Assembly (NCBI GenBank): GCA_903821875.1 | Contig: CAIJMU010000165.1 | Span: 1 to 40,695, forward strand | Length of the DNA: 40,695 nt | Direction of reading: 5' to 3' | Source: an uncultured Spirochaetota bacterium | Lineage (GTDB): Bacteria; Spirochaetota; Spirochaetia; Treponematales; Rectinemataceae | In this document: one piece after another, positions 20,054-39,753 of the stretch | Numbering within the stretch: position 1 is the first letter of the stretch | Layout of the letters: each line of letters begins with the position of its first letter | Program-made: the position numbers and the translations under genes | Notes under the pieces: generated by a model | Database searches by the model: none | The model's input: the letters and a program-made list of their open reading frames with translations, nothing else | Told to the model about the DNA's origin: nothing

Positions 20054-20170
20054 CCGGCCGAGGCGGGGAAGATCTGGCGCGCTAGCCCTCCAGGCATGAC
20101 CAAACCCGACATGACAAACCGCGATATTCCTGACTCTGCTCTTCCCGGCCACCTCGATGGAGGTTCTACC

Positions 20171-21079
20171 GTGGTGGCCCCTGTGTCCCTTGTCCGCGCA
20201 GGCATCGCACTCGTCGCCAAGCCCATGGGGGTCACTTCCTTCCAGGCACTCGGACCGCTTAAGCGCATCATGGCTACGACCAGGCTCGGCCACACGGGCA
20301 CACTCGACAGCTTCGCCAGCGGCCTATTGGTTATCCTCGTGGGGAACCTCACGCGCCTGGGCGCGTTTTTCACCGCCCTGGACAAGCGTTACGTCGCGCG
20401 TGTCCGCTTCGGCGAGGAAACAGCGACCCTCGATCCCGAGGGCGAGATTGTCGCGAGGGCCCCCCTCCCGACATTGGCCGCGATAGAGGCGGCCCTCCCT
20501 GCCTTCAGGGGCCCGATCATGCAGGCGCCGCCCGCCTACTCTGCTGTCCATGTCGATGGCGAGCGCGCCTCGGACCGCGCCCGCAGGGGTGAGGCCCTCG
20601 TCATGAAGGAACGGCCTGTCACGATCCACGAGCTCGAACTTCTCGCTTACGAGGGGGGAGATGCCATCATCTCGGTGCGCTGCTCCTCGGGTACCTACAT
20701 CCGCTCGCTCGCCCGCGATCTGGCGAAGGCGGCAGGCAGCGTTGCACGCCTCGAGGCGCTCGAACGATCCTGGGTTGGCCCCTTCTCGCTGGCTCAAGCC
20801 AGGCCAGTAGGGCAGTTTTCCGGCCCGGCTGACCTCCTTCCCTTCGACCCCGCGGCAGCCATCGGACTTGGTCTTTCTGTCCACGTCCTCGCGAAGGGGA
20901 GGGAGGAGGCATTCCGGAACGGACAGCGCCTGGCTCCGGCCTGGCTCTCTCCCTTCGATGGCTCCGCACTGGCTGCTGAAAGTCCCCTCGCGGTATTTTC
21001 TGAAGCCGGCAGCTTTCTCGGCGTCCTTGGCGTGACGGACAGCGAACTCCGCTACATGATGGTCCTGGGTGCCCCGTGA
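20171..21079 (+). CDS. truB: tRNA pseudouridine synthase B (tRNA Psi55)
   Basis: 302 residues from the chosen GTG. The catalytic motif GHTGTLDSFASGLL has its aspartate at D46, very close to D48 of E. coli TruB. Further marks are KPMGVTSF, PPAYSAVHVDGERA (Tyr stacking residue) and RCSSGTYIRSLARDL. Role: converts U55 in the T-loop of tRNAs to pseudouridine. Start choice: GTG at 20171 has GGAGG at a 7-base gap and gives the usual short N-terminus. An in-frame ATG at 20096 would add 25 residues of non-conserved sequence and has no clear ribosome-binding site. The stop TGA overlaps the ribF ATG by one base (TGATG). Confidence 0.93.
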   Translation: MVAPVSLVRAGIALVAKPMGVTSFQALGPLKRIMATTRLGHTGTLDSFASGLLVILVGNLTRLGAFFTALDKRYVARVRFGEETATLDPEGEIVARAPLPTLAAIEAALPAFRGPIMQAPPAYSAVHVDGERASDRARRGEALVMKERPVTIHELELLAYEGGDAIISVRCSSGTYIRSLARDLAKAAGSVARLEALERSWVGPFSLAQARPVGQFSGPADLLPFDPAAAIGLGLSVHVLAKGREEAFRNGQRLAPAWLSPFDGSALAAESPLAVFSEAGSFLGVLGVTDSELRYMMVLGAP

Positions 21080-21852
21080 TGCGCGTTGTTGGCTATGATG
21101 AGGCAGCAGGGGAGTGCGAAGGCATCAAGGGGGCCTCGGTCACCATCGGCGTCTTCGATGGGCTCCATGCGGGGCATCGCGCCCTTATCGAGCGCTGCGT
21201 GAGGAGGGCGGGTGCAGGGCCCTCGGTCGTGTTCACCTTCAGGAACAATCCCAAGAAGCTGCTCAAGCCGGATGCCTTCCCCGGCGATCTGGTGAGTCTG
21301 GACAGAAAGCTCGAGCTCCTCGAGGCCTTCGGGGTCGATCTCGTCGTGCTGATTGACTTTTCCGGCGATTTCAGTAGAATGCCGGGCAGGATTTTCCTGT
21401 CCACGCTGCACGAAAGCGTCCATCCCGACTTTGTCGCGATCGGCTCCGATTTCCATTGCGGAAAGGGCAGGGATACCGACGCTGCGGAGCTCCGGTCCTT
21501 TTTCGGGGAGCGCGGTGTCACGGTTGAGATCTTCGCGCCGGTCGTCGCGGGCGGGGAGGTCGTCAGTTCCACGCGGATCAGGCTCGCCCTCCAGTCCGGC
21601 AACATCGGTGCCGCTTCGGAGTTGCTCGGGCGAGAGGTGGAAGTGGAGTTGGGCGGGCATCTCGGGCTTCGGGATGGCGTCCATCATTTCGCTCGGCCGG
21701 AGGGGCTGGTACTGCCTCCACCCGGCCTCTATCCGGTGACGACCGATGATCCCGAAAGCTCCGGGCAGGGCGGGATCATGGTCAAGGGAAACGGCCTGGA
21801 ACTGGTTGGATTGGGCGGCTGCGAGGGCCTGGCACGGGTTCGCATCATGTAG
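21079..21852 (+). CDS. ribF: FAD synthetase (RibF-type FMN adenylyltransferase domain, kinase domain not recognisable)
   Basis: 257 residues. The N-terminal 180 residues are the nucleotidyltransferase domain of RibF: SVTIGVFDGLHAGHRALI (HxGH-type loop), VVFTFRNNPKKLL, FVAIGSDFHCGK and VVSSTRIR are all in place. Known RibF enzymes are about 300 residues, with a C-terminal riboflavin kinase. Here only about 75 residues follow SSTRIR, and the kinase signatures (GxGRxLGFPTAN and the PxxGVY region with catalytic Glu) are missing apart from a faint LLGRE...PPPGLYPV. I infer an adenylyltransferase that makes FAD from FMN, with kinase activity lost or reduced. ATG overlaps the truB stop (TGATG); a GTG one codon earlier is possible. 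rpsO follows after 57 bases. Confidence 0.82.
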   Translation: MRVVGYDEAAGECEGIKGASVTIGVFDGLHAGHRALIERCVRRAGAGPSVVFTFRNNPKKLLKPDAFPGDLVSLDRKLELLEAFGVDLVVLIDFSGDFSRMPGRIFLSTLHESVHPDFVAIGSDFHCGKGRDTDAAELRSFFGERGVTVEIFAPVVAGGEVVSSTRIRLALQSGNIGAASELLGREVEVELGGHLGLRDGVHHFARPEGLVLPPPGLYPVTTDDPESSGQGGIMVKGNGLELVGLGGCEGLARVRIM

Positions 21853-21909
21853 GCCCGCCGGGAATGTATCAGGCAGCAAGGAACGACGAACATACAAGGA
21901 GTAAGACGA

Positions 21910-22179
21910 ATGGCTCTTACAAAAGCTGACAAGGCCAAGGTCATTGTCGACTATGGCAAGTCGGAGAAGAACACGGGCTCCACCGAGACCCAGGTCGCCC
22001 TCCTCACGGAGCGCATCACCTATCTCACCGAGCATTTCAAGGTCCACAAGAAGGACACGAACTCCCGCCGCGGGCTGCTCAAGCTCGTCGGCCAGCGCAG
22101 GAAGCTTCTCAAGTACCTCCAGCGCACCGACCTCTCGGGTTACCGCGTCCTCATCGAAAAGCTGAACATCCGCAAGTGA
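21910..22179 (+). CDS. rpsO: 30S ribosomal protein S15
   Basis: 89 residues, exact family length. Typical S15 features: [23 protein letters not shown], then [25 protein letters not shown] and [13 protein letters not shown]-type ending (here [13 protein letters not shown]). Binds 16S rRNA central domain early in 30S assembly. Strong AAGGAG 8-9 bases before the ATG, the best ribosome-binding site in this operon, as expected for a ribosomal protein. Followed by two stem-loops and pnp, the ancient rpsO-pnp pair. Confidence 0.97.
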
Positions 22180-22220
22180 CCCCACGAGGGATGCAGATTT
22201 CCCGCGTGGATGTCGCATGG

Positions 22221-22248
22221 AAGGCCCGCCCCGCTGGGGAAGGGCCTT
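22221..22248 (+). terminator. Stem-loop after rpsO, partial terminator
   Basis: AAGGCCC (22221-22227) pairs with GGGCCTT (22242-22248), with an inner CCCC/GGGG stem around GCT. It is followed by TTCGTCGTT rather than a clean T-run, so it is more likely a leaky terminator or mRNA 3'-end stabiliser between rpsO and pnp. Confidence 0.5.
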
Positions 22249-22259
22249 TCGTCGTTCCT

Positions 22260-22292
22260 CGCGACGCCGTGGCGTGACGCCAAGGCGTCGCG
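22260..22292 (+). promoter_or_regulatory. Long hairpin in the pnp 5' leader
   Basis: CGCGACGCC (22260-22268) pairs perfectly with GGCGTCGCG (22284-22292). Inside, TGGCG pairs with CGCCA around a TGA loop, with one G-A mismatch: 14 base pairs in total. It ends 15 bases before the pnp ATG, just upstream of its AGAAGG. In E. coli a stem-loop at the same place is cut by RNase III and mediates PNPase autoregulation; the same use here is inference. Confidence 0.55.
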
Positions 22293-22307
22293 CGAAAGAA
22301 GGTACTA

Positions 22308-24557
22308 ATGCCGACTACAATGAACATCAAGCTGGGCGCCGTGGACATGGTCCTCGAGACGGGCAGGATGGCCAAACAGGCCAATGGCTCCGTTTTCGCG
22401 CAGTACGGCGGAAGCGCCGTACTTGCGACGGCCTGCTGCGCCGCCAGCGCCACCGAGGGCCTCGACTTCGTCCCCCTCACCGTCGAGTACAACGAAAAGT
22501 ACTACGCCGCGGGGAAGATCCCCGGGGGCTTCATCAAGCGTGAGTCAAGGCCCAAGGACCGTGAGATCCTCGTGTCCCGCCTCATCGACCGTCCGATGCG
22601 CCCGCTCTTCGACAAGGCCTTCGGGCGCGAGATCCAGGTCATCCCGACCTGCATCCAGGCGGACGGGGTCAATCCACCGGACATCCTGGCCATCAATGCG
22701 GCCAGCGCGGCCGTGGCCATCTCCGACATTCCCTTCAACGGGCCCATCGGTGCCGTGCGGGTCTGCCTCCTTGGAGATGAATATGTCATCAACCCCAGCT
22801 ACGAGCAGTGGAAGAAGGCCCGCCTCGAGATCGTCGTAGCTGGTACAAAAGACGGCATCACGATGGTAGAGGGCGATTCCGAGGAAGTCTCGGAAGCCGA
22901 GATGATCGGTGCCATCGAAGCTGCCCGCGGCCCGATTGCCGAGGTCTGCAAGAAGATCAATGAGCTCGCCGCCTCCATCGGCAAGCCCAAGCTTCCCCTC
23001 TCGCCCCTCAAGATCAAGCTCAACCGCGCCGACGAGATCCGCTCCTGCGCCCACGGCCTCCTCAACAAGGCCCTCTTCACAAAGATCAAGCAGGAGCGCT
23101 ACGAGGCCATCGCCACGGCCATCTCCGACGTCAAGGCGAAGTTTGCCGATGTCCTGGTCGACGAGACGCAGAAGAAGCTCTTCGCTGCCCTCATGGAGGA
23201 CCTCCAGTACGAGATCCTCCGCGGCGGCATCCTTGATTCCGGCAGCCGTGTCGACGGGCGCGGCCTCGAGGACATCAGGCCGATCACCTGCGAGCTCGGC
23301 GTCCTGCCGCGCACCCACGGCTCTGCCCTCTTCACCCGGGGCGAGACCCAGGCCCTGGCGGTTGTCACACTTGGTACGGTCTTCGACGAGCAGATCTTCG
23401 ATGACATCGAGGGCGACCGCCGCGAGCGCTTCATGCTCCACTACAACTTTCCGCCCTACTCCGTGGGCGAGGTCGGGCGTACCGGTACCGGCCGACGCGA
23501 GATAGGCCACGGCAACCTGGCACGCCGTTCGATCGAGAAGGTCCTTCCCACCAAGGAAGTCTGGCCCTACACGGTGCGTGTCGTTTCCGAGATCCTCGAG
23601 TCCAACGGCTCCTCGTCGATGGCCTCGGTATGCGGAGGCTCGCTGTCCCTGATGTACGCGGGTGTGCCCCTGAAGCGCCCAGTGGCAGGCATTGCCATGG
23701 GTCTGATATCCGAGGGTTCCCGCTGGGCTGTCCTCTCCGACATCCTGGGCGACGAAGACCACCTCGGTGACATGGACTTCAAGGTTGCCGGCACCACGCA
23801 GGGCATTACTGGTTTCCAGCTCGACATCAAGATCGCGGGGCTCTCCCAGGAGATCCTTACAAAGGCCCTCGACCAGGCCAAGCGCGGCAGGCTGCATATC
23901 CTGGGCATCATGAACGCGGCGCTGCCGAACCATGCGGACGAGATCTCCCAGCTCGCGCCGAAGGTCGTAACCATGAAGATCGACGTCGAGAAGATCGGCG
24001 CGATCATCGGCCCGGGTGGCAAGAACATCAAGGCGCTCTGCGAGACCTACACTGTAAAGATCAATGTTGACGACGACGGCTCGGTGACGATCTACGGCAG
24101 CACGCAGAAGAACGCCTACGAGGCCCGCGACGCCATCAAGGGCATCGTCGAGGATCCCGAGGTCGGACGCATCTACGACGGAATCGTCAAGCGCACAATG
24201 GACTTCGGCGCCTTCATCGAGATCCTCCCCGGGAAGGAAGGCCTCTGCCACATCTCCCGCCTCTCGAAGAACCGCGTCGACCGGGTCTCCGACGTGATCA
24301 AGGAAGGCGACAAGGTCAAGGTCAAGCTCCTCGAGGTCGACCGCCTCGGCCGCCTCAATCTCGCCCACATCGATTCACTCGACGAGAACGGCAACGTCGC
24401 GGTAGACGCCAACCGGGAGGCGGGCCACTCCGACAGCGACAGGCCGCCGCGCCCCTATGGAGACCGCCCGCCGCGCCCCGACGGTGATCGTCCTAGATAT
24501 GACGGTCCGCGCCATGACGGGCCCCGCAGGGATGACCGAGGTCCCCGGAGAAGCTAG
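22308..24557 (+). CDS. pnp: Polyribonucleotide nucleotidyltransferase (PNPase)
   Basis: 749 residues. Two RNase PH domains (about 1-215 and 305-545, the second with FNFPPYSVGEVGR-like YNFPPYSVGEVGRTGTGRRE) flank a helical domain. KH domain with GPGG loop (568-571) and S1 domain (about 621-692) follow. Role: phosphorolytic 3'-5' RNA decay. The last 40 residues are an unusual tail rich in Arg, Pro, Asp and Gly with repeated DRPPRP and RxDGPR units, likely disordered. AGAAGG lies 5-6 bases before the ATG at 22308; an ATG four codons later is possible. Its stop TAG overlaps the GTG of the next gene (TAGTG), so the operon continues. Confidence 0.96.
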   Translation: MPTTMNIKLGAVDMVLETGRMAKQANGSVFAQYGGSAVLATACCAASATEGLDFVPLTVEYNEKYYAAGKIPGGFIKRESRPKDREILVSRLIDRPMRPLFDKAFGREIQVIPTCIQADGVNPPDILAINAASAAVAISDIPFNGPIGAVRVCLLGDEYVINPSYEQWKKARLEIVVAGTKDGITMVEGDSEEVSEAEMIGAIEAARGPIAEVCKKINELAASIGKPKLPLSPLKIKLNRADEIRSCAHGLLNKALFTKIKQERYEAIATAISDVKAKFADVLVDETQKKLFAALMEDLQYEILRGGILDSGSRVDGRGLEDIRPITCELGVLPRTHGSALFTRGETQALAVVTLGTVFDEQIFDDIEGDRRERFMLHYNFPPYSVGEVGRTGTGRREIGHGNLARRSIEKVLPTKEVWPYTVRVVSEILESNGSSSMASVCGGSLSLMYAGVPLKRPVAGIAMGLISEGSRWAVLSDILGDEDHLGDMDFKVAGTTQGITGFQLDIKIAGLSQEILTKALDQAKRGRLHILGIMNAALPNHADEISQLAPKVVTMKIDVEKIGAIIGPGGKNIKALCETYTVKINVDDDGSVTIYGSTQKNAYEARDAIKGIVEDPEVGRIYDGIVKRTMDFGAFIEILPGKEGLCHISRLSKNRVDRVSDVIKEGDKVKVKLLEVDRLGRLNLAHIDSLDENGNVAVDANREAGHSDSDRPPRPYGDRPPRPDGDRPRYDGPRHDGPRRDDRGPRRS

Positions 24558-25849
24558 TGCTTGCAGCCATCGCGCTCCCTCGCGGCGCCTCCCTCTACGC
24601 GGAGCGGGTCGCAGGAGCGCGCTCATTCAGCGTGGGATTCTGGTTTCAGATCGGGTCCCGCCACGAGGAAGAGCACGAGCGGGGCTTCGCTCATTTCTCC
24701 GAGCACCTCCTGTTCAAGGGCACTGCGACGCGGAGTGCCCTCGACATAGCCCGCGCTATCGACCGCGTCGGCGGCTACCTTAATGCTTTCACAGAGCGTG
24801 ACACGCTCTGCGTCCATTGCACGGTGCCCGCGCGCCACTGGGAACTCGCCCTCGAGCTCCTCGCAGACCTTTGCTTCAGTTCCACCTTTCCCCCGGAAGA
24901 GGTCGAGCGTGAGCGCGAGGTCATCGAGAGCGAGATCCTTGCTGCCAGGGACGACCCCGAGGAGTGCGTCAACGACCTTCTCCTCGAGATGATATGGCCC
25001 GGGGACCCTCTGGCCCGGCCCATCGCGGGGTCGGAAAAGGATATCCGCTCGGCTGATAGGGACCAGTTGTTTGCTTTCAGTCGGGGTACCCTCAGGCCGG
25101 AACGCCTCCTGGTCACCTTGGCAGGGCCCGAGGAAGCTGCGCAGGCCAGCGCCAGGCTCGGCAGGCTCCTCGATGCCCTTCCCGAGCCCCCCGTACCCGC
25201 GAAGGTCCTCCCTTCGCCGGTCGAGCCTCACTGGCGGGGTGGGATCCGGGCCGTGCCCGAAAGGCTCTCACAGGCCTACCTCCTGGTAGCCTTGCCCTGG
25301 CACCCCCCCTTCCTGGATCGTGACTACTACGCCATGTCCGTACTGAATGGAGCCTTTGGCGAATCCATGAGCTCGCGCCTCTTCCAGGGTCTCAGGGAAA
25401 AGGAAGGTCTGTGCTACTCGGTCGCCTCAGGTTTTTCGCTTTCCCGCACCGAAGGTCTCTGGGTCGCCCAGGCCTCGTCTTCGGTGAAGTCCTTCCCCGA
25501 GCTGCTGGCCTCCCTCGAGCGGGAGATCGATGAGCTCTCCGGCGACCGTCCACTCACTGCCCAGGAGATCTCCGAATCCCTGTCGCGCCTCGAGGGGGGC
25601 TTCGACCTTTCCCTTGACGATCCTGAGTACCGCATGAAGCGCCTGGCCAGGCAGGCCCTCGAGACAGACCAGGTCCTCGACATCGAGGAGACCCGGGCCC
25701 GGATCATAGCGGTCGATCCCGAGGAGATCGCGGCCATGACCAGGCGTGTCTTTGCCGCTGAGGATCGCGCGATCCTCGCCTATGGCCGCCTGGGCGCCAA
25801 GGGCGAGCGCATCATGGCAGCCCGCGCAGGAAGTCCCGCCCATGCCTGA
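24557..25849 (+). CDS. M16-family zinc metalloprotease (processing-peptidase-like)
   Basis: 430 residues, one-chain size typical of bacterial M16B enzymes (YmxG/PqqL-like). The inverted zinc motif is HFSEH (H46, E49, H50), with the downstream zinc ligand E126 at the 76-residue spacing known from mitochondrial processing peptidase beta. The second, non-catalytic M16 half (about 215-420) has the [15 protein letters not shown] segment. Known relatives are cytosolic or periplasmic peptidases acting on small peptides; there is no signal peptide here, so a cytosolic place is likely. Starts with GTG overlapping the pnp stop and overlaps dut by 8 bases at the end. The pnp-M16-dut neighbourhood is common in bacteria, but its substrate is unknown. 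Confidence 0.9.
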
Positions 25850-26282
25850 GCCGCGAGTGCGCTTCGTCGTTGCTCCGGGGGCTCGGCTTCCCGAGTATAA
25901 GTCCAGCGGAGCTGCAGGCGCGGATCTGCGTGCGCGACTCGATGCGCCGCTCCTCCTCGCCCCTGGCATGCGTTTCGCCGTTCCCACGGGCCTCCGCATC
26001 GAATTGCCCCAGGGCTACGAGGCGCAGCTGCGCCCCCGCTCGGGCCTCGCCCTTGAAAAGGGCCTTACCTGCCTGAATTCCCCTGGTACCATCGATTCCG
26101 ACTATCGGGGAGAGGTGAAGGTATTACTGATCAACCTCGGTTCAGCGCCCGTCGAAGTCTCTGACGGTGACAGGATCGCTCAACTGATCGTGGCACCTGT
26201 ATCCCGGGCCAGTTTCGAGGCTGTGGAAGGGCTCGCCGACAGCGAGAGGGGACCTGGCGGCTTCGGCTCGACCGGGCACTGA
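25842..26282 (+). CDS. dut: Deoxyuridine 5'-triphosphate nucleotidohydrolase
   Basis: 146 residues, normal for trimeric dUTPase. All five motifs present: AGADLRA (25-31), RPRSGLA (64-70), [13 protein letters not shown] (82-94, with D85 and Y88 at the active site), GDRIAQLI (109-116) and [10 protein letters not shown] (136-145). Hydrolyses dUTP to dUMP, keeping uracil out of DNA and feeding dTMP synthesis. Start choice: ATG at 25842 with AGGA about 10 bases upstream, inside the end of the M16 gene; a longer open frame upstream is a shadow of the M16 reading frame. Two bases separate its stop from the next ATG. Confidence 0.96.
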
Positions 26283-26284
26283 CC

Positions 26285-27568
26285 ATGCAACGCCGCGGCA
26301 GGCTCCTTCCAGGCATCTTCGAGGCCTACATCGCCAAGGAGTACCTTTTTTCTTTCCTGGTTTCCTTCCTGTTCTTCTTCATCATCTTTTTCGTGAACCA
26401 GCTCCTTCTCATGGCCGAGGACATCCTTTCCAAGCGCGCCCCTGTGAACGAGGTCCTCCTCCTCCTCCTCTTCTCGACACCGGCGGTTGTCGCCATGTCG
26501 GTACCCTTCGCCTCCCTCGTCGGTGCGCTCATGGCCGTGGGCCGGTTCGCGGCGGACAGCGAGTACCTCATCTTCCAGGCCTCGGGAATGCGGAGGCGGC
26601 GGATCTTCCTCCCCTTCCTTGTCGTAGGTCTCCTCCTGTCGGCCCTCTCCTTCGCGGTCAATGACGTTTTCCTCCCACTTGGTACGATCGAGTTCGGGAA
26701 GATCTACCGCAAGCTCCTCGTCTCCGCGCCCTCGCTCGAACTCCAGAGCTGGTCCTCCAAGAAATTCAATGGAATCACCCTCGTGACCGGGGATGTCACC
26801 TCGGACACGGTCTCTGACCTCCTGATCTTCGACCGGACCCCCGAGGGACAGAAGCGGGTCATCTCTGCCAAGAAAGCCTGGCTCGAGACCCTTGCGGACG
26901 AGAATGCGATACTCCTCAAGCTTGACAAGGTATGGACCCAGACCCTCAAGGACGGGGCCTCCCAGCGTTTTGAATACAGCTCCTGCGCAACCATGGAGTA
27001 CCGGATCGAGCTGTCCGGGACCCAGGCAATCCGCACGACGGTCGGCCCGCGCGAGATGAGCTCGCGGGACCTCTGGAAGTCCATCGCGACCCAGGCATCC
27101 ACCTTCGACGGGAAATCCGCCCAGCTTGCCGCAGAGACCGCCACGGTGCGGGGCAACCTGGCAGACGCCTACTACATGGATGTCTCCTCGCCGACAGCCT
27201 GGGAGGGCAACGTTCCCGACCTGTCCAGGCAGCTCTCCATGCTGCGCACGAAGGAGCAGTCCAAGGTTGAGCGGAGGAACCTCGATCTCTACCTCCTTGA
27301 GTATCACAAGAAGTACTCGATCCCGACAGGTGCGGCGGTCTTCGTCCTTCTCGCCTTTCCGATAGGTGCGCGAGCCAGGCGCGCAGGCCGCTCGGTCGGC
27401 TTCGGACTCGGCCTTCTTATCGCCGTCGTCTACTGGGCCCTCCTGATCGGCGGCCAGACCCTTGGCACCAGGCTGGGCTTCGACCCGGCTCTGGCCATGT
27501 GGCTGCCGAACATCGTCATAGGCGCTGTAGGCGTCGTCGCCTGGCTCGGCGGCGGGGCGGGCAGGTAG
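26285..27568 (+). CDS. lptF: LptF/LptG-family permease, first of pair
   Basis: 427 residues. YjgP/YjgQ architecture: N-terminal helices about 20-43, 58-88 and 103-128; a periplasmic beta-jellyroll about 135-320; and three C-terminal helices about 342-420 with GARARRAGRSVGFG in a cytosolic loop. The first helix opens with the family's IAKEYLFSFLVS pattern. Known role: with LptG and the LptB ATPase it extracts lipopolysaccharide from the inner membrane and hands it to LptC/LptA. No lptB, lptA or lptC is in this window. Which of the two neighbours corresponds to E. coli LptF or LptG cannot be told by eye; symbols are by order. Follows dut by 2 bases and precedes its partner by 2 bases. Confidence 0.82.
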   Translation: MQRRGRLLPGIFEAYIAKEYLFSFLVSFLFFFIIFFVNQLLLMAEDILSKRAPVNEVLLLLLFSTPAVVAMSVPFASLVGALMAVGRFAADSEYLIFQASGMRRRRIFLPFLVVGLLLSALSFAVNDVFLPLGTIEFGKIYRKLLVSAPSLELQSWSSKKFNGITLVTGDVTSDTVSDLLIFDRTPEGQKRVISAKKAWLETLADENAILLKLDKVWTQTLKDGASQRFEYSSCATMEYRIELSGTQAIRTTVGPREMSSRDLWKSIATQASTFDGKSAQLAAETATVRGNLADAYYMDVSSPTAWEGNVPDLSRQLSMLRTKEQSKVERRNLDLYLLEYHKKYSIPTGAAVFVLLAFPIGARARRAGRSVGFGLGLLIAVVYWALLIGGQTLGTRLGFDPALAMWLPNIVIGAVGVVAWLGGGAGR

Positions 27569-27570
27569 CC

Positions 27571-29070
27571 GTGCGCGGACCTGGGCTCCTCCACCGCCAC
27601 CTTCTGGCGACCTTCCTGCCCGCCTTCCTCCTGGCGGCCTGCTTCTTCGTGTTCATCCTGGAGCTTGTGGACCTCTTCGCGAACCTCTGGAAATACATGT
27701 CGCTCGAGGTTCCCCTCCAGCAGGTCCTCAAGGTGATGATGCTCTACGCCCCAACCTGCATCAATTGGGCCCTTCCCATCGCGCTGCTCTTCGCCGTCTC
27801 CTTCGCGCTCGGGAGCCTTTACGCGACCAACGAGCTCGTGGCGGTCTTCGGCATGGGTATCCCCCTCGTTCGCTTCACCCTGCCCTTGGTAATCATGGCG
27901 GCCCTCCTCTCTGCCGGGAGCTTTTTCTTCTCCGACTCTGTGGCTCTCCCTTCCTATCGCGAAAAGACAAGGCTCGTAGCCTCCCTCCTGTCCCAGAATC
28001 CAAGCCTCTCGAACAGCGAGGTGACCGTCCTTTCGCGGAAGGGGCGGATAGTCTGGCACGCTTCCTTCTACGACGACGCCGGGAAGACCCTCACTGACCT
28101 TTCCATCTTCGAACGCGATCCCTCAGGCGCTCCCATCGCCCGCACCGATTGCGCCACCGGCCGCTGGGCCGAGGGTCATTGGACCTTTAGCCGTGTACGC
28201 CGCTTTGCCCTCGACAGTACGGCCCCGAAGCCTGCCAGCTTGGCTGCTGCAGCTGCACCCGCACTTGCACCCGAACTGAAAGCAGCCACAGAGCCCGCGG
28301 CAAAGGCAGCCGCTCCAAAGGCAGCCGCCCCAAAGGCAGCCGCCCCAAAGGCAGCCGCCCCAAAGGCAGCCGCCCCAAAGGCAGCCGCCCCAAAGGCAGC
28401 CGCCCCAAAGGCAGCCGCCCCAAAGGCAGCTGCCTCGAAGACAGAGGCAAAAAAGGCTGCCGCTGCGTCCGACCCGAAGCCCCAGAGCGCGGCGATTGAC
28501 GGCAAGGCAGCCAGAGAGACTGATAGTGGCATAAAGGCCCTGGGCATCATGAACAGCCTGAACGCCGTGAATCAGGCTGTTCCTCTAGCGGTCATGGATA
28601 TCGCAGCGATGGCTCTCGCGGGGCCGGAGGCCGAGGGAATCTGGAAGGAAACCGACTATGGCTCCTGGACCAATCCCGATTTCGACGAGGCCCCCGAATC
28701 CTTCCGCAACCAGAATTTTGACCTAGGCGAGCTTTCGACAGCCGAACTCGGGGAGCGTGCGCGTTTCCAGAAGGAGGCTGGCCTCTCCTGGAAGGCCACC
28801 GAGGCAGAGCGCCTGCGCCGCATGGCCTTCGCCTTCACCCCCCTCATCGTGGTACTGCTGTCGTCCTCGATCGGGGGACGCTACCGCAAGAACGTCCTTC
28901 TCATGAGCCTCCTGGTGAGCCTCGTGGTGGCCACCGGATATTACGTGTTCCAGATGGTGACGATGCTTCTGGCCAAGACGGGAGTGCTCGAGCCCGCGAT
29001 CGGCGCCTGGGCACCCGTTGCGGTCTTCGCCCTCCTGTCGCTTGCGCTCTACAGGATGGCCCGGACATGA
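27571..29070 (+). CDS. lptG: LptF/LptG-family permease, second of pair, with AAAPK repeat
   Basis: 499 residues, about 130 more than a typical LptG. N-terminal helices about 10-37, 50-77 and 88-115, a jellyroll part (about 130-225), then a long Ala/Pro/Lys low-complexity insert (about 226-310), the rest of the periplasmic part and three C-terminal helices (about 412-495). The insert holds nine AAAPK-type units and ends before a hydrophilic, Asp/Glu-rich stretch. Family role as for the preceding gene. Start choice: GTG at 27571, 2 bases after the previous stop, with GGCAGG upstream; an earlier in-frame ATG at 27499 reads through the end of the neighbour in another frame and is non-coding in character. 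tgt follows after 14 bases. Confidence 0.8.
   Translation: MRGPGLLHRHLLATFLPAFLLAACFFVFILELVDLFANLWKYMSLEVPLQQVLKVMMLYAPTCINWALPIALLFAVSFALGSLYATNELVAVFGMGIPLVRFTLPLVIMAALLSAGSFFFSDSVALPSYREKTRLVASLLSQNPSLSNSEVTVLSRKGRIVWHASFYDDAGKTLTDLSIFERDPSGAPIARTDCATGRWAEGHWTFSRVRRFALDSTAPKPASLAAAAAPALAPELKAATEPAAKAAAPKAAAPKAAAPKAAAPKAAAPKAAAPKAAAPKAAAPKAAASKTEAKKAAAASDPKPQSAAIDGKAARETDSGIKALGIMNSLNAVNQAVPLAVMDIAAMALAGPEAEGIWKETDYGSWTNPDFDEAPESFRNQNFDLGELSTAELGERARFQKEAGLSWKATEAERLRRMAFAFTPLIVVLLSSSIGGRYRKNVLLMSLLVSLVVATGYYVFQMVTMLLAKTGVLEPAIGAWAPVAVFALLSLALYRMART
28306..28440 (+). repeat. Nine 15-bp tandem repeats in lptG
   Basis: Unit GCAGCCGCCCCAAAG encodes AAAPK. The first copy (28306-28320) has one synonymous change, seven copies (28321-28425) are perfect and the ninth (28426-28440) gives AAASK. 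They correspond to residues 246-290 of the second permease. Perfect identity over seven copies indicates recent expansion. Confidence 0.95.
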
Positions 29071-29084
29071 AAGGAACCAATTAA

Positions 29085-30290
29085 TTGGAACAACCGATAT
29101 TCACCGAGGAGTGCAGGGATGCCGGCACCCGGGCCAGGACGGGGCGCATCCGCCTGCCCCACGGCGAGGTACGGACCCCGGCTTTCATGCCGGTCGGGAC
29201 GAACGCGACGGTCAAGGCCGTGGAGCCCGCCACCCTCGCCGAGCTCGGCTTCGACATCATCCTGGCGAACAGCTACCACCTCATGCTGAGGCCGGGACCC
29301 CAGGTCATCCGCGCGGCCGGTGGCCTTCACGGCTTTTCGGGCTGGAAGGGGAACTTCCTCACCGACTCGGGCGGCTTCCAGGTCTTCTCGCTGTCAGCCC
29401 TCAGGAAGATCACGGAGGAGGGTGTATCCTTCGCCTCGCACCTCGATGGATCGAAGCGCTTCATGTCGCCCGAGAGCGCGGTGGAACTGCAGCTGGCGTT
29501 CAATTCGGATATACAGATGCAATTGGATGTATGCTCGGCCTGGGGTTCGGAACCGGAGGAAGTGGCGAAGGCCCTCCGCCTCACGACCGCCTGGGCGCTC
29601 AGGGCCAAGGTGCGCTGGGAGAGGGGCCGGGAGGAAGAGGGGTATCGCGGTTCGCTCTTCGGCATCGTGCAGGGCGGTTTCGACAGGGAGCTGCGCACAA
29701 GGAGTGCCGGGGAGCTCGTTGAGCTCGATCTTCCCGGCTATGCGATCGGGGGGCTTTCGGTAGGAGAGCCCTTCGAGGTCTACGCCGGACTGCTCGCCCA
29801 CACGGCCCCCCTCCTTCCCGAAGACAGGCCCAGGTACATCATGGGCATCGGCACGCCGGAATACATCCTCGCTGCGATCGGAAACGGAATAGACATATTT
29901 GATTGCGTATTTCCCACAAGGACGGCGAGGAACGGCCTGTGGTTCACCGCGGATGGACCGATGGCGATCAAGAAAGCCCAGTATGCAGCGGATTTCTCGT
30001 CCCCCGATCCGGCCTGCGGGTGCAGGGTCTGCCGCAACCACTCGCGCGCCTACCTCCGGCACCTGTTCCGCTGCGACGAGATCCTGCATTCCATGCTCGC
30101 CTCCTACCACAACCTCTATTTCCTGCATGACCTTGTCAGGCGTTCGCGCGTCTCCATCGTGGAGGGGCAGTTTGCAGCCTTCGCGAAGGCTTTCCTCGAC
30201 CGCTATGGCTCAGGAAAGCGGGCCCGGAAGGGGAGGGAATCCGCCCTGGTGATGGAAGGGGCAGGGAGCGGGGGAGGGGAGGAGACATGA
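29085..30290 (+). CDS. tgt: tRNA-guanine transglycosylase (queuine biosynthesis)
   Basis: 401 residues. Bacterial Tgt: active-site DSGGFQ (D94, equivalent of E. coli D89), GIDIFDCVFPTR with nucleophile D273 (equivalent of D264), and the zinc site CGCRVC (C311, C313, C316) with H342. Role: exchanges G34 for preQ1 in tRNAs with GUN anticodons. Start is a TTG at 29085 preceded by AAGGA at about 9 bases; no ATG fits better. The tail after 375 is Arg/Gly/Glu-rich and non-conserved. It follows lptG closely; its TGA overlaps the next ATG (ATGA), coupling the HEAT-repeat gene to it. No queA or queuosine salvage gene in the window. Confidence 0.96.
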   Translation: MEQPIFTEECRDAGTRARTGRIRLPHGEVRTPAFMPVGTNATVKAVEPATLAELGFDIILANSYHLMLRPGPQVIRAAGGLHGFSGWKGNFLTDSGGFQVFSLSALRKITEEGVSFASHLDGSKRFMSPESAVELQLAFNSDIQMQLDVCSAWGSEPEEVAKALRLTTAWALRAKVRWERGREEEGYRGSLFGIVQGGFDRELRTRSAGELVELDLPGYAIGGLSVGEPFEVYAGLLAHTAPLLPEDRPRYIMGIGTPEYILAAIGNGIDIFDCVFPTRTARNGLWFTADGPMAIKKAQYAADFSSPDPACGCRVCRNHSRAYLRHLFRCDEILHSMLASYHNLYFLHDLVRRSRVSIVEGQFAAFAKAFLDRYGSGKRARKGRESALVMEGAGSGGGEET

Positions 30291-31669
30291 ACAAGCCAGC
30301 AGCCGCTGCGTCCGCGGTCCTTTTCATGCTATTCATGATGAATGCCGGCCCTGCACAGGATGCGTCGAAGGCGCCGGTAACGCAGGCTGGGGCCGCTGTC
30401 CCGGAGGAACCCGACCTCGACGAAAAGCGCCAGGCGATCGTCAAGTATGGTATCGAGTCCGAACTCCTCGACCTCTTCGGCGACCTCCGGACCGAGAAGA
30501 ACGGGCGTTTCAACGAGGACACCAGGGCCCTCTTCATCGCTTCGAGGAGCGTCAAGCTGCGGACCGCGGTCCTCGAGCTGTGGAAGGTCCTCTCGTGGAG
30601 CGGTGGCGAATCCACGACCCTCGACGTGGTCCGTGGCCGTGACAACCAGGACCCTGCCCTCGTCGCAGCCTGCCTCCGCTACCTCGCAGAGATACGGTCG
30701 AAGCAGGCCCTCGAATTCGCAAAGGTCCTCCTCGACGAGAACGACAAGACGATATTGCCCCAATTGTTCATACTTCTCGGGCGTGCCGGAGGCGGGGCCG
30801 AGGAGGACATCCTCCTCACCTGGATGGGAAAGGATACAGGGAACCCCGCTTTCAAGGAGTCGGCGATCAAGGCCCTCGGCGAGATCAAGTCAGGGAAGGC
30901 GGTGGATGCCCTGGTCAAGATCGTCGATGACAGCGCCCAGGCCCAGACGGATCGCCTGGCGGCTGTCGACGCGCTTGGCAAGATCGGGGATGCAAAGGCG
31001 GTAACCAGTCTCGTGAAGGCTTCGACCGGCGACAACGCAAGCGTGCAGGCGGCAGCCATCGAGGCACTCGGTTCCTTCCAGGGTGCCGAAGCCGAGGCAG
31101 CCATCCTGGATGCCCTCCGCTCGAGTTTCCCGAGGACCCGCATCGCTGCCTGCAAGGCCGTAGCCACGCGGAAACTCACGAGGGCAGAGCCCAACCTCGA
31201 ATACAAGGCTAAAAACGATCCCGACAAGGCGGTCAAGACCGAGGCCCTTCGCGCCCTGTCGCTGCTCGGCGGGCGCGAAGCCTTCGCCTTCATCGCCGGT
31301 ATCATGAATGACCGGAAGCTCGATAGCCCCTCACGAAGCCTTGCCTTGGGCCTCCTGGCGAGGAAGGACCCGATGGCTTCGATGGAAGCGATGAGTACCC
31401 TCCTTTCCGCCGAGGCCAAGACGCCGGACCGCTACCTGTTCAAGATCCTTGCGAAGGAGGTGGCCAACGCCCGCGACGCACCGGGCATCGCGCCACTGGC
31501 CCGGATCCTGATGGCCGACAAGGAGTACGAGATACGCATCGGCGGCCTCGAGTGGGCGCGCCTGACAAGTGCTCCTGACATAAGGGCCGATGTAGCGCGT
31601 CTTGCGGAGTCGGACAGCGAGGTAGCCGTGAGGAAGCGGGCCGCCTCGGTGCTGAAGGGCTTCCAGTAA
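30287..31669 (+). CDS. Exported HEAT-repeat protein
   Basis: 460 residues. Signal peptide about 1-24 (AAAASAVLFMLFMMNAGPAQ), no lipobox cysteine, so periplasmic. From about residue 90 the chain is a run of 30-residue helix-pair units of HEAT/PBS-lyase type, e.g. AIKALGEIKSGKAVDALVKI, AVDALGKIGDAKAVTSLVKA, AIEALGSFQGAEAEAAILDA and ALRALSLLGGREAFAFIAG. Such solenoids are protein-binding scaffolds; no enzymatic motif is visible. I recognise similar exported HEAT proteins in treponemes but know no function. It overlaps the tgt stop by ATGA, so is translated from the same mRNA. A strong terminator follows 17 bases after the stop. Confidence 0.8.
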   Translation: MNKPAAAASAVLFMLFMMNAGPAQDASKAPVTQAGAAVPEEPDLDEKRQAIVKYGIESELLDLFGDLRTEKNGRFNEDTRALFIASRSVKLRTAVLELWKVLSWSGGESTTLDVVRGRDNQDPALVAACLRYLAEIRSKQALEFAKVLLDENDKTILPQLFILLGRAGGGAEEDILLTWMGKDTGNPAFKESAIKALGEIKSGKAVDALVKIVDDSAQAQTDRLAAVDALGKIGDAKAVTSLVKASTGDNASVQAAAIEALGSFQGAEAEAAILDALRSSFPRTRIAACKAVATRKLTRAEPNLEYKAKNDPDKAVKTEALRALSLLGGREAFAFIAGIMNDRKLDSPSRSLALGLLARKDPMASMEAMSTLLSAEAKTPDRYLFKILAKEVANARDAPGIAPLARILMADKEYEIRIGGLEWARLTSAPDIRADVARLAESDSEVAVRKRAASVLKGFQ

Positions 31670-31686
31670 GGGGATGAGGGCAAAGA

Positions 31687-31722
31687 AATGGCCGCCGGGC
31701 GATTCCGGCGGCCATTCTTTTG
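31687..31722 (+). terminator. Bidirectional intrinsic terminator
   Basis: AATGGCCGCCGG (31687-31698) pairs perfectly with CCGGCGGCCATT (31705-31716), a 12-bp stem around a 6-base loop. CTTTTG follows on the plus strand and TTTCTTTG on the minus strand. It separates the convergent HEAT-repeat and greA genes and probably serves both. Confidence 0.8.
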
Positions 31723-31728
31723 CAATCA

Positions 31729-31752
31729 TGACAATCGTAATTATGATTGTCA
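31729..31752 (-). terminator. Second stem-loop at the end of greA
   Basis: TGACAATC (31729-31736) and GATTGTCA (31745-31752) form a perfect 8-bp stem with an AT-rich 8-base loop, 4 bases after the greA stop. It has no T-run of its own; the overlapping alternative CAATCAT/ATGATTG can also pair. It may stabilise the greA mRNA end or act together with the stronger hairpin beyond it. Confidence 0.45.
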
Positions 31753-31756
31753 GTAC

Positions 31757-34486
31757 TCAGATCTTCGCGACCTCGATGCGGTCCACCGCGTACTGGAACT
31801 TGCGGTCGTGGATCGTAAAGGCCAGCTTGTCGCCGGGCTTGTGGTTGAGGAGCTTCTTCCCGAGGGGGGAGAGGTAGGAGATCACGTTGCGCTCGGGGTC
31901 GGATTCCCATGGACCGAGGATAGTGAAGGTTTCCTTCTCGCCCGAGATCTCGTTCTCGAGGAAGACCGTCGTTCCGAACTGGACCTTGTTGGAGGTGACG
32001 GTGGTCTTGTCGAAGAGCTGGGCGCGCTCGAGCTCGTTCTTGATCTTGGCGACCTTGGCGTTGAGTTCGTCCTGCTTTTCCTTGGCGGCCTTGTACTCGG
32101 CGTTTTCCCGGAGGTCTCCGAGGGAGAGGGCGTAGGCGATTTCCTTCTGGTTGAGCGGAACGTCGGTGGTCAGGATGTGCTCGAGAAGCCGCTGCTTCTC
32201 GAACATCTTGTCGGAGGTGACGATGAGGCCGCGGGACACGACTTCCTTGCCCTCCTCGCCGGCTACCTTGAAGTCCGGGAAGCGATCGGTGATGCGCCTC
32301 CGGAGGCGGAGCTTGGCGCCGGCGTCGAGGTCCTTGACGTCGGTGACCAGCGTGAAGACGCGTTCGATCATGTCGGCCGTCGAGATGTCCAAGAAGCCTT
32401 CAAGTCTGCCATGGCCCGGGTTCTTGGCGTCCCCGAAGAGGATGCCCTGGACCTGCTTGTTGATCTTGCGGTTCTCGGTGGTGTCGCGGTGGTTCTCGAT
32501 CTCCTTGAAGGAGATGTCGAGGATGTGGATGAGGTTCAAGAGGATCTTCTCGTTCGTGAAGAGCCCGAGTTCCTGGAACCACTCCTTCTCCTCGAGGTTC
32601 TTCACAGTCCAGATAAAGGCCTCGCGGTGGCTGCGGTAGTTCTCGACGATGTCAATTACCATCTTCTTGAGCTTGTCGAAGTTGCCGGTCTCCTCGAGGA
32701 TGACCAGGAGGGAGGGGTCGAGCGACCAGGGGAAGAGGCGGACGTACACGTCGGACCACTCGGGAATGAAGGCCCTGATGTCCTGCACGTAGGCAGCGCG
32801 GAGCTTTGAGTCCTTGATCCCTTCCCAGATGGCCACGGGATCCTCGATCTGCTCGAAGAGCTCGGCGAAGCCCACGGTCAGGGAACTCGCGAGGGACTTG
32901 TTGTCGACGGCGATCTCCTTCAGGAGGAGGTAGGCGGAGACGACCTGCTCGTTGACCTGCTGGAAGGAGCGGGTGAAGCCGGTGAAGTAGGCGAGCATCT
33001 CCACGAAGAATTCGGAGTCGGGCTCCGCCTTGTCGAGGAAGGCCCGGACGTCCTGGACGCGGGCGAAGAAATTCTTCGGGGCCTTGAACTGGTTGTAGAT
33101 CTTCTCCTCGAAGGACAGGGGCCGGTCGCGGACCACGTAGGTCCCCACCGAGTCGGTCGCGTTGCCGAAGGTCGAGTCATCCTTGAGGACATTGCGTGCC
33201 TTCGTACTCCACGAGTTCCATTCCTTCAGGGTCAGCACGGACTCGACAAGTTCTGCCTTTATACGCTTGAGGTCTGCCCGGTTGTCAAAGCTCTTGATGA
33301 GGATGCGGAGGGCCCAGGCCGGGTCGCCGATGAGCTTCTCCTTGAGCTTGTCCTTGGGCCAGACAGCCTTGAGCACCCAGATGTGCTCCTTCGAGAGTGT
33401 CGTGAGGCTGTCGATGGCCATCTTGAGGGACATCCTGTGCCCGCGGCTCTTGGCAAAATCGATGACGAGCTCGTCACCCTGGACGCTGGCTATCTTGCCG
33501 ACGTTCCAGGTGCGGTGGAAGACGAAATTGCCGGCGTCGAAGGAGATGTGTTTCTCGAAGTCGGCCATCGCCTCGTTGATGGAGCGGTAGGTGGTCGCGA
33601 TGTTAGAGAGCCTGAGGTAGTCCTCGAGGTGGGAGTGGGAGGCAAACTTGCCCCTGTAGCATTCGACGACTTCCTTGCGGATGGCGGCGTTGCGCTCGTC
33701 ATAGGAGATGACGAGCCTGAGGATGTCGAGGGAGGTGTTCCAGTCCTGGCCGCTCTTGTAGTGGCGGTAGAGGTCCAGGAGGAGGGCCGCAGCCTTGTCC
33801 TCGGATATCTGCTTGGCAATCTTGCGCTGCACGTGGAAGAAGAAGTCGATGTCGTCGGGGCAGACCTCGCCGAGCTTTCCCCAGAGTTCCTTCACGTTTG
33901 CGAAGGAACCCTTGTTGATGTATCGGTGGAGGGCCTTCTTGTAGAAGTCGATCGCCTCTTCGGTGCGGCCTTCCTTCTCGCGGCGCTCGGCGAGGTGCTT
34001 GACGATGTCGGTCTCTTCGTAGTCTGCCTTGACCAGGCGCTCCCAGACCGCGTACTTCTCGTCGCCGCGGCTCTCTGCCTCGAGGCACTCGGCCAGGCGG
34101 CGCAGGGCAACCTTGTTCTCACCGAAGTCGAGCATGCGGTTGCAGATGAACTCGACGTTGGCCCACCTGCGGTTGTCGGCGAAGAGCTCGATGAGGGTGG
34201 TCATGGCCGAGTCGTCGAGCTGCTGGCGGGTGAGGGCAATCACGCCCGAGAGGTAGAGGGCTATGACGGAGTTCTTGGTGTGGCCGAGGTGCTCATCGCA
34301 GAGGATCTTGATGGCTTCCTCGACCTTGTCCCGCTTGGCTTCCTCGATGATGAGGTCGAGTTCCTTGAAGGTGGCAACTGTATGGGCGGTGAGTGCCGCC
34401 CTCGTCCACTTCTCCTCATTGAGGAGCTCCTGAACCTTAGTCTCGTGGGCGCTGAAGACTTTTTCAGCCTGTTCAGTATCGGACAT
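31757..34486 (-). CDS. greA: GreA transcript-cleavage factor fused to a large N-terminal helical region
   Basis: 909 residues. The last 158 residues are a complete GreA: coiled-coil with YALSLGDLRENAEYKAAKEKQ, carrying the acidic tip (D and E of GDLRENAEY) that reaches the RNA polymerase active site, then the FKBP-like C-terminal domain (GTTVFLENE...ISYLSPLGKKLLNHKPGD). The first ~750 residues are not in E. coli GreA; they are helical, TPR-like in pattern (AIDFYKKALHRYINKG near 190) with no recognised catalytic motif. Treponemes carry such a fusion (TP0019 in T. pallidum, from memory). Role: rescue of backtracked RNA polymerase; the extension may tether partners. Start choice: ATG at 34486 with GAGGAG 5 bases upstream; the GTG two codons earlier lacks spacing. 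Follows the TPR-like gene by 12 bases. Confidence 0.93.
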   Translation of the reverse strand: MSDTEQAEKVFSAHETKVQELLNEEKWTRAALTAHTVATFKELDLIIEEAKRDKVEEAIKILCDEHLGHTKNSVIALYLSGVIALTRQQLDDSAMTTLIELFADNRRWANVEFICNRMLDFGENKVALRRLAECLEAESRGDEKYAVWERLVKADYEETDIVKHLAERREKEGRTEEAIDFYKKALHRYINKGSFANVKELWGKLGEVCPDDIDFFFHVQRKIAKQISEDKAAALLLDLYRHYKSGQDWNTSLDILRLVISYDERNAAIRKEVVECYRGKFASHSHLEDYLRLSNIATTYRSINEAMADFEKHISFDAGNFVFHRTWNVGKIASVQGDELVIDFAKSRGHRMSLKMAIDSLTTLSKEHIWVLKAVWPKDKLKEKLIGDPAWALRILIKSFDNRADLKRIKAELVESVLTLKEWNSWSTKARNVLKDDSTFGNATDSVGTYVVRDRPLSFEEKIYNQFKAPKNFFARVQDVRAFLDKAEPDSEFFVEMLAYFTGFTRSFQQVNEQVVSAYLLLKEIAVDNKSLASSLTVGFAELFEQIEDPVAIWEGIKDSKLRAAYVQDIRAFIPEWSDVYVRLFPWSLDPSLLVILEETGNFDKLKKMVIDIVENYRSHREAFIWTVKNLEEKEWFQELGLFTNEKILLNLIHILDISFKEIENHRDTTENRKINKQVQGILFGDAKNPGHGRLEGFLDISTADMIERVFTLVTDVKDLDAGAKLRLRRRITDRFPDFKVAGEEGKEVVSRGLIVTSDKMFEKQRLLEHILTTDVPLNQKEIAYALSLGDLRENAEYKAAKEKQDELNAKVAKIKNELERAQLFDKTTVTSNKVQFGTTVFLENEISGEKETFTILGPWESDPERNVISYLSPLGKKLLNHKPGDKLAFTIHDRKFQYAVDRIEVAKI

Positions 34487-34498
34487 ATGCACTCCTCT

Positions 34499-35437
34499 TC
34501 ATGCGGTGTAGAGCTTGTGTATCTGGGGATCGAGCAACCGGAGCTTGAGCAGGATCTCATCGATGCGTGCGCGGTCCTCGTGGGCAGCCATGCAGTGGTC
34601 GATGAGCCAGAAATACCGGTTGACGAGCCGGGGGATTATCAGGATCCGATCGGTGGCGTTTTCGCGGAGTTCGTTCTCGAGCTGGTAGATCGACTGCCTG
34701 AGCTTGGCCGCCTCGACGTACTTGAGCTCGCGTTTCACGGTGAAGACTCCGAGGAGGTTGGCGTAGACGGGAATCCACTCCGCCACTTCGGAACCGGTCT
34801 TGCCGGCCTCCCTTACCTTCTCGACGAGCCTCTTGATCATCTCCGACTCAAGGAAATCGAGGGCGATGCGGTGGGGACCCATGTAGAAGGCTTCGCGGAA
34901 CAGGGCCTTGGACTCGCGCATCTCGTTGACCAGTCCGTGCACATCGGCCAGTTCCGCGAGGGCCTCGGGATCATCCCTGCGCTCCTTGGTGGCGACAGAC
35001 AGCTCGGCAAGGGCCTCGTCATAGGATCCTGCGCCCTTGAGGCAGCGGCCTATGCGGAGGGCGAGTTCCCCGAGATTGCTGTCACCCTCCTCGCTGGGCA
35101 GGGCCCGGTACTGCGCGAGGGCGAGTGAGAAACAGTATTGCTTGAATGCGTAGCGGCAGGGTTCGAATGCGCCTTGCAGCCTCGACTGGAAGGTACTGAA
35201 GGTCTTCCATATGCCGAGCACAAGTTCGCCCCGCTCGAAGGGGTTGGCAACCCCGGTCAGGCGGGTCTCGGCGTCCTGCCAGTAGCCGGCACATTTCATG
35301 GCGAAGAGCACCTCGGAATTCTCGTAGTCGACGGCCAGCGCCTTTTCGAGCATCAAGGAAGCCGTGTCGAGATCGACGCCACGCAGCGCCTCGTAGGCAT
35401 TAGCCAGGAGAGAAGTAACCCGTGCGTGCTCGACCAT
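34499..35437 (-). CDS. TPR-like helical protein upstream of greA
   Basis: 312 residues from ATG 35437. All-helical, with tetratricopeptide-type units such as LLANAYEALRGVDLDTASLMLEKALAVD (about 8-35) and CLKGAGSYDEALAELSVATKERRDDPEALAELADVHGLVNEMRESKALFREAFYM (about 130-185). No signal peptide or membrane segment, so cytosolic. Function unknown. It lies immediately before greA, whose long N-terminal region is of similar helical style, and the pair is probably one transcription unit; cooperation is inference. Start is uncertain: ATG 35437 has only a GAGA stretch; the frame stays open to a TTG at 35593, but those 52 residues look non-coding. Confidence 0.72.
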   Translation of the reverse strand: MVEHARVTSLLANAYEALRGVDLDTASLMLEKALAVDYENSEVLFAMKCAGYWQDAETRLTGVANPFERGELVLGIWKTFSTFQSRLQGAFEPCRYAFKQYCFSLALAQYRALPSEEGDSNLGELALRIGRCLKGAGSYDEALAELSVATKERRDDPEALAELADVHGLVNEMRESKALFREAFYMGPHRIALDFLESEMIKRLVEKVREAGKTGSEVAEWIPVYANLLGVFTVKRELKYVEAAKLRQSIYQLENELRENATDRILIIPRLVNRYFWLIDHCMAAHEDRARIDEILLKLRLLDPQIHKLYTA

Positions 35438-35623
35438 GCTTTTCTCAACGCTGCTCTCTACGGTGCTCTCTATGATGACACTTCCAATCGTGCAGGATGG
35501 GCCACTCTCGCCTGATGAGGTCGCCACCCGCATGTCAAGGCTGACCGATACCGCAGACCTCGGCCGGGCAGCCGGTGGATCGTTCCCGGACAACGCGAAC
35601 TCGGTTTGCGTATATGAAATAAG

Positions 35624-35651
35624 CCTATACTGAAAGGGAAGCCTTGGTCAA
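35624..35651 (-). promoter_or_regulatory. Probable promoter of the TPR-greA unit
   Basis: Minus strand: TTGACC (35646-35651), 16-base spacer, TATAGG (35624-35629). Predicted start near 35617. Confidence 0.5.
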
Positions 35652-35734
35652 TCTGGGAGCATTCCACGCCCCTGCGACAGGCGTTCCGGAGGCTTTGAGG
35701 AGACCCCGCCTGGCGTCCGGGTCGGCGGGCCTCG

Positions 35735-35763
35735 TTGCGCGGCAGTCCACGCCATGCTACTGT
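35735..35763 (+). promoter_or_regulatory. Candidate promoter of rpe
   Basis: TTGCGC (35735-35740), 17-base spacer, TACTGT (35758-35763). Predicted start near 35770, directly at the rpe ATG (35771), so the message would be leaderless. The -10 matches only as TAnnnT. Confidence 0.35.
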
Positions 35764-35770
35764 CGCGCCG

Positions 35771-36451: not shown

Positions 36452-36488
36452 CAGATGGATATCCCCTTCCCTGGCTCCGGCAAAGCGA

Positions 36489-36517
36489 TTGAGTTTCCAT
36501 CACGCTGGGCCGATACT
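36489..36517 (+). promoter_or_regulatory. Probable promoter of the envelope TPR cluster
   Basis: TTGAGT (36489-36494), 17-base spacer, GATACT (36512-36517). Predicted start near 36524, followed by GGAGG and the ATG at 36535. It shows that the three-gene cluster can be expressed apart from rpe. Confidence 0.45.
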
Positions 36518-36534
36518 GAAAGCGGAGGATTCCC

Positions 36535-38621: not shown

Positions 38622-38631
38622 AGGCCGTACC

Positions 38632-39732: not shown

Positions 39733-39753
39733 GGATGAAGCGCTGATCGGTCC

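Follow-up and report, generated by a model that had tools for sequence, protein, structure and literature searches.

A 139-residue in-frame insert with an Ala/Pro/Lys tandem array in the LptG of an uncultured Spirochaetota bacterium

The lptG gene found in the window, i.e., the whole stretch of 40,695 nucleotides analyzed here, carries an in-frame insert of 139 residues at a site where its relatives have a short turn (for example RRFVL-NEKG-NWSE in the same-genus genome G001). We consider it likely, with a probability of about 75%, that this insert is a recent, low-complexity and tolerated disordered loop, private to its own genome among those examined, in an LptG that is ordinary apart from it. 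This reading draws on the sequence of the insert, its distribution among relatives, the repeat content of the genome and the place of the insert in the fold of the permease (Table 1).

Table 1. Features of the lptF-lptG region, with positions counted in the window
Feature	Position	Strand	Remarks
lptF, 427 aa, directly upstream of lptG	26285..27568	+	Pfam LptF_LptG 249.4 bits
lptG, 499 aa, GTG start assumed	27571..29070	+	Pfam LptF_LptG 211.8 bits; Foldseek to 6mit_G, E 1.1e-12
Whole insert, 139 aa, private to the genome among those examined	28213..28629	+	LptG residues 215-353; core alignment, boundaries good to a few residues
Proximal insert flank, Ala/Pro-rich	28213..28305	+	LptG residues 215-245; third-position GC (GC3) 0.52 vs 0.81 in upstream core
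Tandem array, nine 15-bp units, (AAAPK)8 + AAASK	28306..28440	+	LptG residues 246-290; TRF and unit reading
Distal insert flank, mildly hydrophobic stretch near its end	28441..28629	+	LptG residues 291-353; weak low-confidence helix at 311-349

The insert and its tandem array

The tandem array makes up the middle third of the insert (45 of 139 residues). Analysis of the window with TRF detected a repeat of period 15 at positions 28301-28434, with 8.9 copies, 98% match and a score of 254, and reading unit by unit resolved it into nine in-frame units: the first (28306-28320) differs from the repeat consensus by a single base, the following seven (28321-28425) are perfect copies of GCAGCCGCCCCAAAG, and the last (28426-28440) reads AAASK. 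The array had been described before as (AAAPK)9 with seven perfect and two near-perfect units; its existence, place and number of units are borne out, and the ninth unit has to be read as AAASK. A chance origin could be ruled out, as exact repetition with period 15 continues for as many as 101 bases in the window, whereas 2,000 codon shuffles of lptG reached a maximum of 12. Since the units are near-identical, recent growth of the array is suggested.

The insert extends well beyond the array. Between the two halves of the LptG core, 417 nucleotides are found in the window gene as compared to -3 to 12 in the relatives L010-L020, the reading frame is kept throughout, and both flanks are LptG. 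The GC3 of the insert (0.52-0.68) is lower than that of the core (0.81-0.82). With regard to charge, the array contributes 9 lysines in 45 residues, whereas the insert as a whole has 18 Lys and Arg as compared to 10 Asp and Glu. The flexible, strongly basic Ala/Pro/Lys arm of the original prediction is thus in frame and, judging from low pLDDT, probably flexible, but as a whole less basic than had been thought.

No convincing relative of the non-repeat part of the insert was detected in the own genome, in 30 family genomes, or among plasmids and phages. Outside the own genome, the best match of the distal stretch in the 30 family genomes had an E-value of 0.27 and plasmids and phages returned none, by which a mobile or phage source was rejected. 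A second copy in the own genome was likewise rejected, since the search returned the gene, a reading of it in another frame and, beyond these, five weak matches of low complexity, with E-values from 0.002 to 7.3. Local duplication within the window was discarded because, apart from the array matching itself, only matches of 16-28 bases with E-values of 0.014 or worse were seen, and a pattern match on contig C131 was dismissed because its frame is not Ala/Pro/Lys-rich.

Occurrence among relatives and repeat content of the genome

The insert was seen in no other LptG examined. In the core alignment, the length at the site deviates from that of the core by -15 to +2 residues in the 50 LptG copies besides that of the window, 49 of them being in frame; this count omits L001-L007, which are the own gene again, and L049-L051, which are second pieces of genes already included, and it contains L048, which was left unaligned because of stops. 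Of the eleven named relatives in the comparison, ten carry the label Treponema and one the label Spirochaetaceae, so that a spirochaete is the most likely source of the window. Because the Treponema loci L052-L062 may repeat species of some of the G genomes, the sets were kept separate and not summed. In G001 the site is intact and the insert absent, on a contig that ends 36 residues further on. The alignment of the relatives leads us to reject an insert common to the genus or family.

Wider searches gave the same picture. At the level of the order, LptG was matched in 232 of 241 genomes at E <= 1e-15, nine being without a match, and it was split into two pieces in four: the own genome, G009, G092 and G095. 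For part of these genomes only the number of pieces at E <= 1e-15 is available, so that an insert with a weaker second piece would escape. None of the other three qualified as a further case, as the pieces in G092 and G095 lie on different contigs and lptG of G009 is frame-shifted. The gene of this family member (L048, G009:C48:1665-2742) consists of two overlapping pieces, owing to either sequencing error or decay. At the level of the phylum, 159 of 198 genomes were matched at E <= 1e-12 and 39 were not; among the matches listed, 120 near-full-length ones from 120 genomes, the own genome excluded (336-356 of 356 profile positions), span 1,032-1,095 bases, i.e., -4 to +13 residues relative to the profile. 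Two pieces were also seen in G248 and G250, 168 and 129 nucleotides apart, near profile position 180, which is a different place from that of the insert. Altogether, a second case was found neither among the 50 copies, nor among the 232 matching order genomes, nor among the 120 near-full-length phylum matches listed, and the search for inserts at the same site in spirochaete LptG that the original prediction had proposed is negative within this range. The titles and abstract openings among the literature matches listed report no LptG insert of comparable kind. The fact that no examined relative has the insert favors a recent, tolerated repeat expansion over a new device.

The genome itself is rich in repeats. 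Sampling 575,757 bases revealed 53 non-overlapping TRF arrays with scores of at least 50, of which 43 have a period divisible by 3, 19 score 100 or more and six equal or exceed the LptG array with its score of 254. The resulting density is 92 arrays per Mb, from a sample of 40 stretches taken from every fourth contig between C1 and C157, mostly their first 20 kb (C105 at 20001-40000), which over-represents contig ends and thereby favors repeats. Two controls gave 45 per Mb (G033, 9 arrays in 200,000 bases, mid-contig) and 67 per Mb (G004, 11 arrays in 164,243 bases), both differing from the own genome in GC or sampling. Within the longest open frames, sampled arrays would read for instance as TGATSGAS (L094, 9933-10162, in a frame of 984 residues), TAEVGL, PEPELE and AKAKPAAKAGAK repeats, the last occurring at 1044-1304 of L117 in a frame of 1054 residues. 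At 5704-5802 of L110 on contig C101, a perfect 5-bp repeat, ACAGG, is present in 19.8 copies; with a period not divisible by 3, it is a possible phase-variation site if coding.

The window also holds an array that scores above that of LptG (TRF score 384), in the gene for IF-2 (open reading frame 16201-19650). Here, positions 17031-17584 encode a Gly/Gln/Tyr-rich N-terminal stretch of 185 residues (107 G, 28 Q and 22 Y), which we take to resemble prion-like or phase-separating sequences. In the family member G004, a stretch of similar kind lies ahead of the IF-2-like frame (L162, first 380 bases); it is common to both genomes, unlike the LptG insert.

Where relatives have a short surface turn, in the last hairpin of the lipid-binding domain on the periplasmic side, the window LptG has 139 in-frame residues rich in Ala, Pro and Lys. 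We propose that the array in their middle expanded when a 15-bp unit that keeps the frame was multiplied by replication slippage or unequal exchange, in a GC-rich and repeat-rich genome. Slippage fits the distal part less well: its 63 residues form no simple repeat, and a hydrophobic, possibly helical stretch is not explained by plain slippage.

The host permease and the place of the insert in its fold

The LptG product exceeds the Pfam LptF_LptG gathering score by far (211.8 as compared to 27.9 bits). Against the NCBIfam models it scores 148.2 bits with TIGR04408 (LptG), below the equivalog cut-off of 240, and 75 bits with TIGR04407 (LptF), so that its profile is closer to LptG than to LptF; LptF of the window likewise misses its own equivalog cut-off (162.5 as compared to 230 bits). 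Because these cut-offs are missed, the name LptG refers here to family membership and gene order and does not denote a certified equivalog. A second in-frame GTG lies upstream of the assumed start, at 27499. The best seven Foldseek matches of the LptG model are LptG chains, with LptF chains ranking after them; 6mit_G, 6mjp_G and 8frl_G were matched with E-values of 1.1e-12 (6mit_G) to 7.0e-12, at TM-scores by target length of 0.65-0.67, that of 6mit_G being 0.66, and rmsd values of 8.4-9.4 for a query model of low confidence. The half following the insert is normal, with 52-61% identity in nine family members (L011-L018 and L020). As to the partners of LptG, the lptF gene is adjacent and LptC is encoded in the genome (38.6 bits in Pfam as compared to a cut-off of 21). 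Like LptG of the LptB2FG complexes in these structures, the window protein is a permease with a periplasmic jellyroll, and its gene is adjacent to lptF; unlike it, the window protein carries, at the turn of the last hairpin, a loop of 139 residues that is probably disordered, and it belongs to a genome without an LpxC match.

Sequence alignment and modelling locate the insert between the last two strands of the jellyroll, the lipid-binding domain, at the turn of its final beta-hairpin. In an AlphaFold2 control, LptG of Treponema berlinense, which is without the insert, strands 204-209 and 212-216 flank the turn with block-mean pLDDT values of 79 and 77, and the helices that follow run into the final transmembrane segments, a poorly modelled part (236-276 and 291-301 below pLDDT 50). 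In the original prediction, the insert follows the jellyroll and precedes the last helices; the core alignment and the control model place it one strand earlier. The membrane topology of LptG is known and was used to assign the side of the membrane. Together with homology to solved LptG, it supports the periplasmic location originally predicted. In the model of the window LptG, residues 225-363 have pLDDT values below 50, and a weak helix is drawn at 311-349, with block means of 37-41 at 311-350. The alignments behind the models are shallow (12 rows for the window protein and 11 for the control; mean pLDDT 64.3 and 65.0, pTM 0.56 and 0.46, respectively) and alignment A1 moves the gap of the insert by some residues, and for these reasons the boundary was taken from the core alignment.

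The insert is therefore described here as a predicted disordered loop, which would bulge into the periplasm while anchored at both ends. Since closure of the hairpin would still be possible, we propose that the loop is tolerated, at a surface turn that may be permissive. The site would be so because LptC pairs with LptF rather than LptG, as reported in E. coli work cited in the available text of PMC10353723. The periplasmic domains of LptF and LptG are both described as critical in the available part of the Klebsiella and E. coli work (PMC5548808), so that a loop of 139 residues in that of LptG would not be free of risk. Against pure tolerance it can be said that the units of the array follow one another in frame and without interruption, a state that selection would also maintain.

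The Lpt pathway and other readings of the insert

LpxC (PF03331) was not matched in the own genome, which is 97% complete, in a search that was positive in 4 of 14 control genomes. LptD (PF04453) gave no Pfam match in the own genome either, with a model that may miss spirochaete LptD. Besides LptF, LptG and LptC, the genome has an LptA-like gene next to LptC, named by eye and position. It thus appears, by sequence, to encode an Lpt system without evident LPS. The same set, LptF, LptG, LptC and an LptA-like gene without an LpxC match, is shared with the LPS-less Borrelia burgdorferi as far as the available text of PMC10353723 describes it; that text mentions no such insert, and in the genome studied here LptD is without a Pfam match. 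Since LpxC is not matched, the cargo of LptG is probably not LPS and an acidic LPS path is doubtful; a glycolipid is the cargo proposed for LPS-less spirochaetes in the available text of PMC10353723. The lysines next to an acidic lipid path that the original prediction had envisaged thus find no support.

The LptA-like protein of the genome (G000:C105:28818-29609; L084, L125) ends in a Pro/Ala/Gly-rich tail of 62 residues. Tails of 49-68 residues, Pro/Ala-rich, were seen in G001, G004, G005 and G017, and tails of 6-23 residues in 20 of 26 family copies, L142 being left out as its alignment ends early. Given this Pro/Ala-rich tail in the own genome and several relatives, extra disorder in the pathway may be no pure accident.

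Resemblance to known extended segments was considered as well. The linkers of domain II of TonB and TolA are likewise Pro- or Ala-rich, disordered and periplasmic, and the length of the insert falls within the range printed in the available part of PMC12204202 (medians of 113 residues for TonB and 192 for TolA). However, both ends of the insert are joined to neighboring strands inside a folded domain, which makes it a loop and not a reaching linker, and Pfam detected no TonB or TolA domain in LptG, so that the comparison with such linkers is not supported. Histone H1-like arms are similar in Ala/Pro/Lys composition, and to this extent the earlier comparison holds; the insert, in contrast, is internal and periplasmic and no DNA-binding tail, and HC2 scored 17.6 bits on LptG, under the cut-off of 40. 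A TopA-like protein of the own genome, named by eye, ends in an Ala/Pro/Lys tail.

A selected function of the loop, with lysines that bind peptidoglycan or anionic head groups or steady the trans-envelope bridge, is unlikely in our view. The periplasmic side and the positive array would suit such an arm, as would two probably exported proteins of G017 with Ala/Pro/Lys linkers or Ala-Ala-Ala-Asp-Lys repeats, the GerMN-like L078 and the NlpC/P60-like L076 (G017:C194), the latter a cell-wall enzyme, putatively exported, in which an Ala-Ala-Ala-Asp-Lys repeat follows the catalytic part, their domains being named by eye. However, the insert occurs in a single genome among those examined, its tied ends would limit its reach to about half the contour length, the unmatched LpxC leaves no obvious acidic LPS to bind, and Pfam detects no peptidoglycan-binding domain in LptG. 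Decidedly improbable is the broader idea that the disordered cationic loop and the hydrophobic distal segment, along with the Pro/Ala-rich tail of the LptA-like protein, serve an LPS-less spirochaete to tether the bridge that exports its glycolipids, or to gate it.

We give very little credence to a regulatory lid, in which the repeat would be a tether and the distal stretch would fold onto the membrane or the LptG groove and gate lipid transfer. A mean hydropathy of 1.53 at residues 332-350 and the modelled helix would be in line with it, but the pLDDT of that helix is low, the helical moment amounts to 0.05-0.31 in 18-residue windows starting from residue 317 on, and the distal stretch has no good match in the family genomes, plasmids or phages. 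An assembly artefact is highly improbable, too: the assembly has 193 contigs, and with an array of 135 bp, near common short-read lengths, the number of units could be wrong if short reads were used, yet the insert is in frame between LptG flanks, a wrong join would rarely fall in frame at a hairpin turn, and elsewhere in the genome only weak low-complexity matches (best E 0.002) could be its source.

As a recent and tolerated loop, the insert would likely have a minor biological effect, such as crowding or weak electrostatic contact with peptidoglycan or head groups, and it leaves existing knowledge of Lpt transport unchanged. It also draws attention to a spirochaete genome with many repeat arrays. 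Moreover, the lipid-binding domain of LptG seems to accept 139 extra residues at this site, which could guide the insertion of tags or probes.
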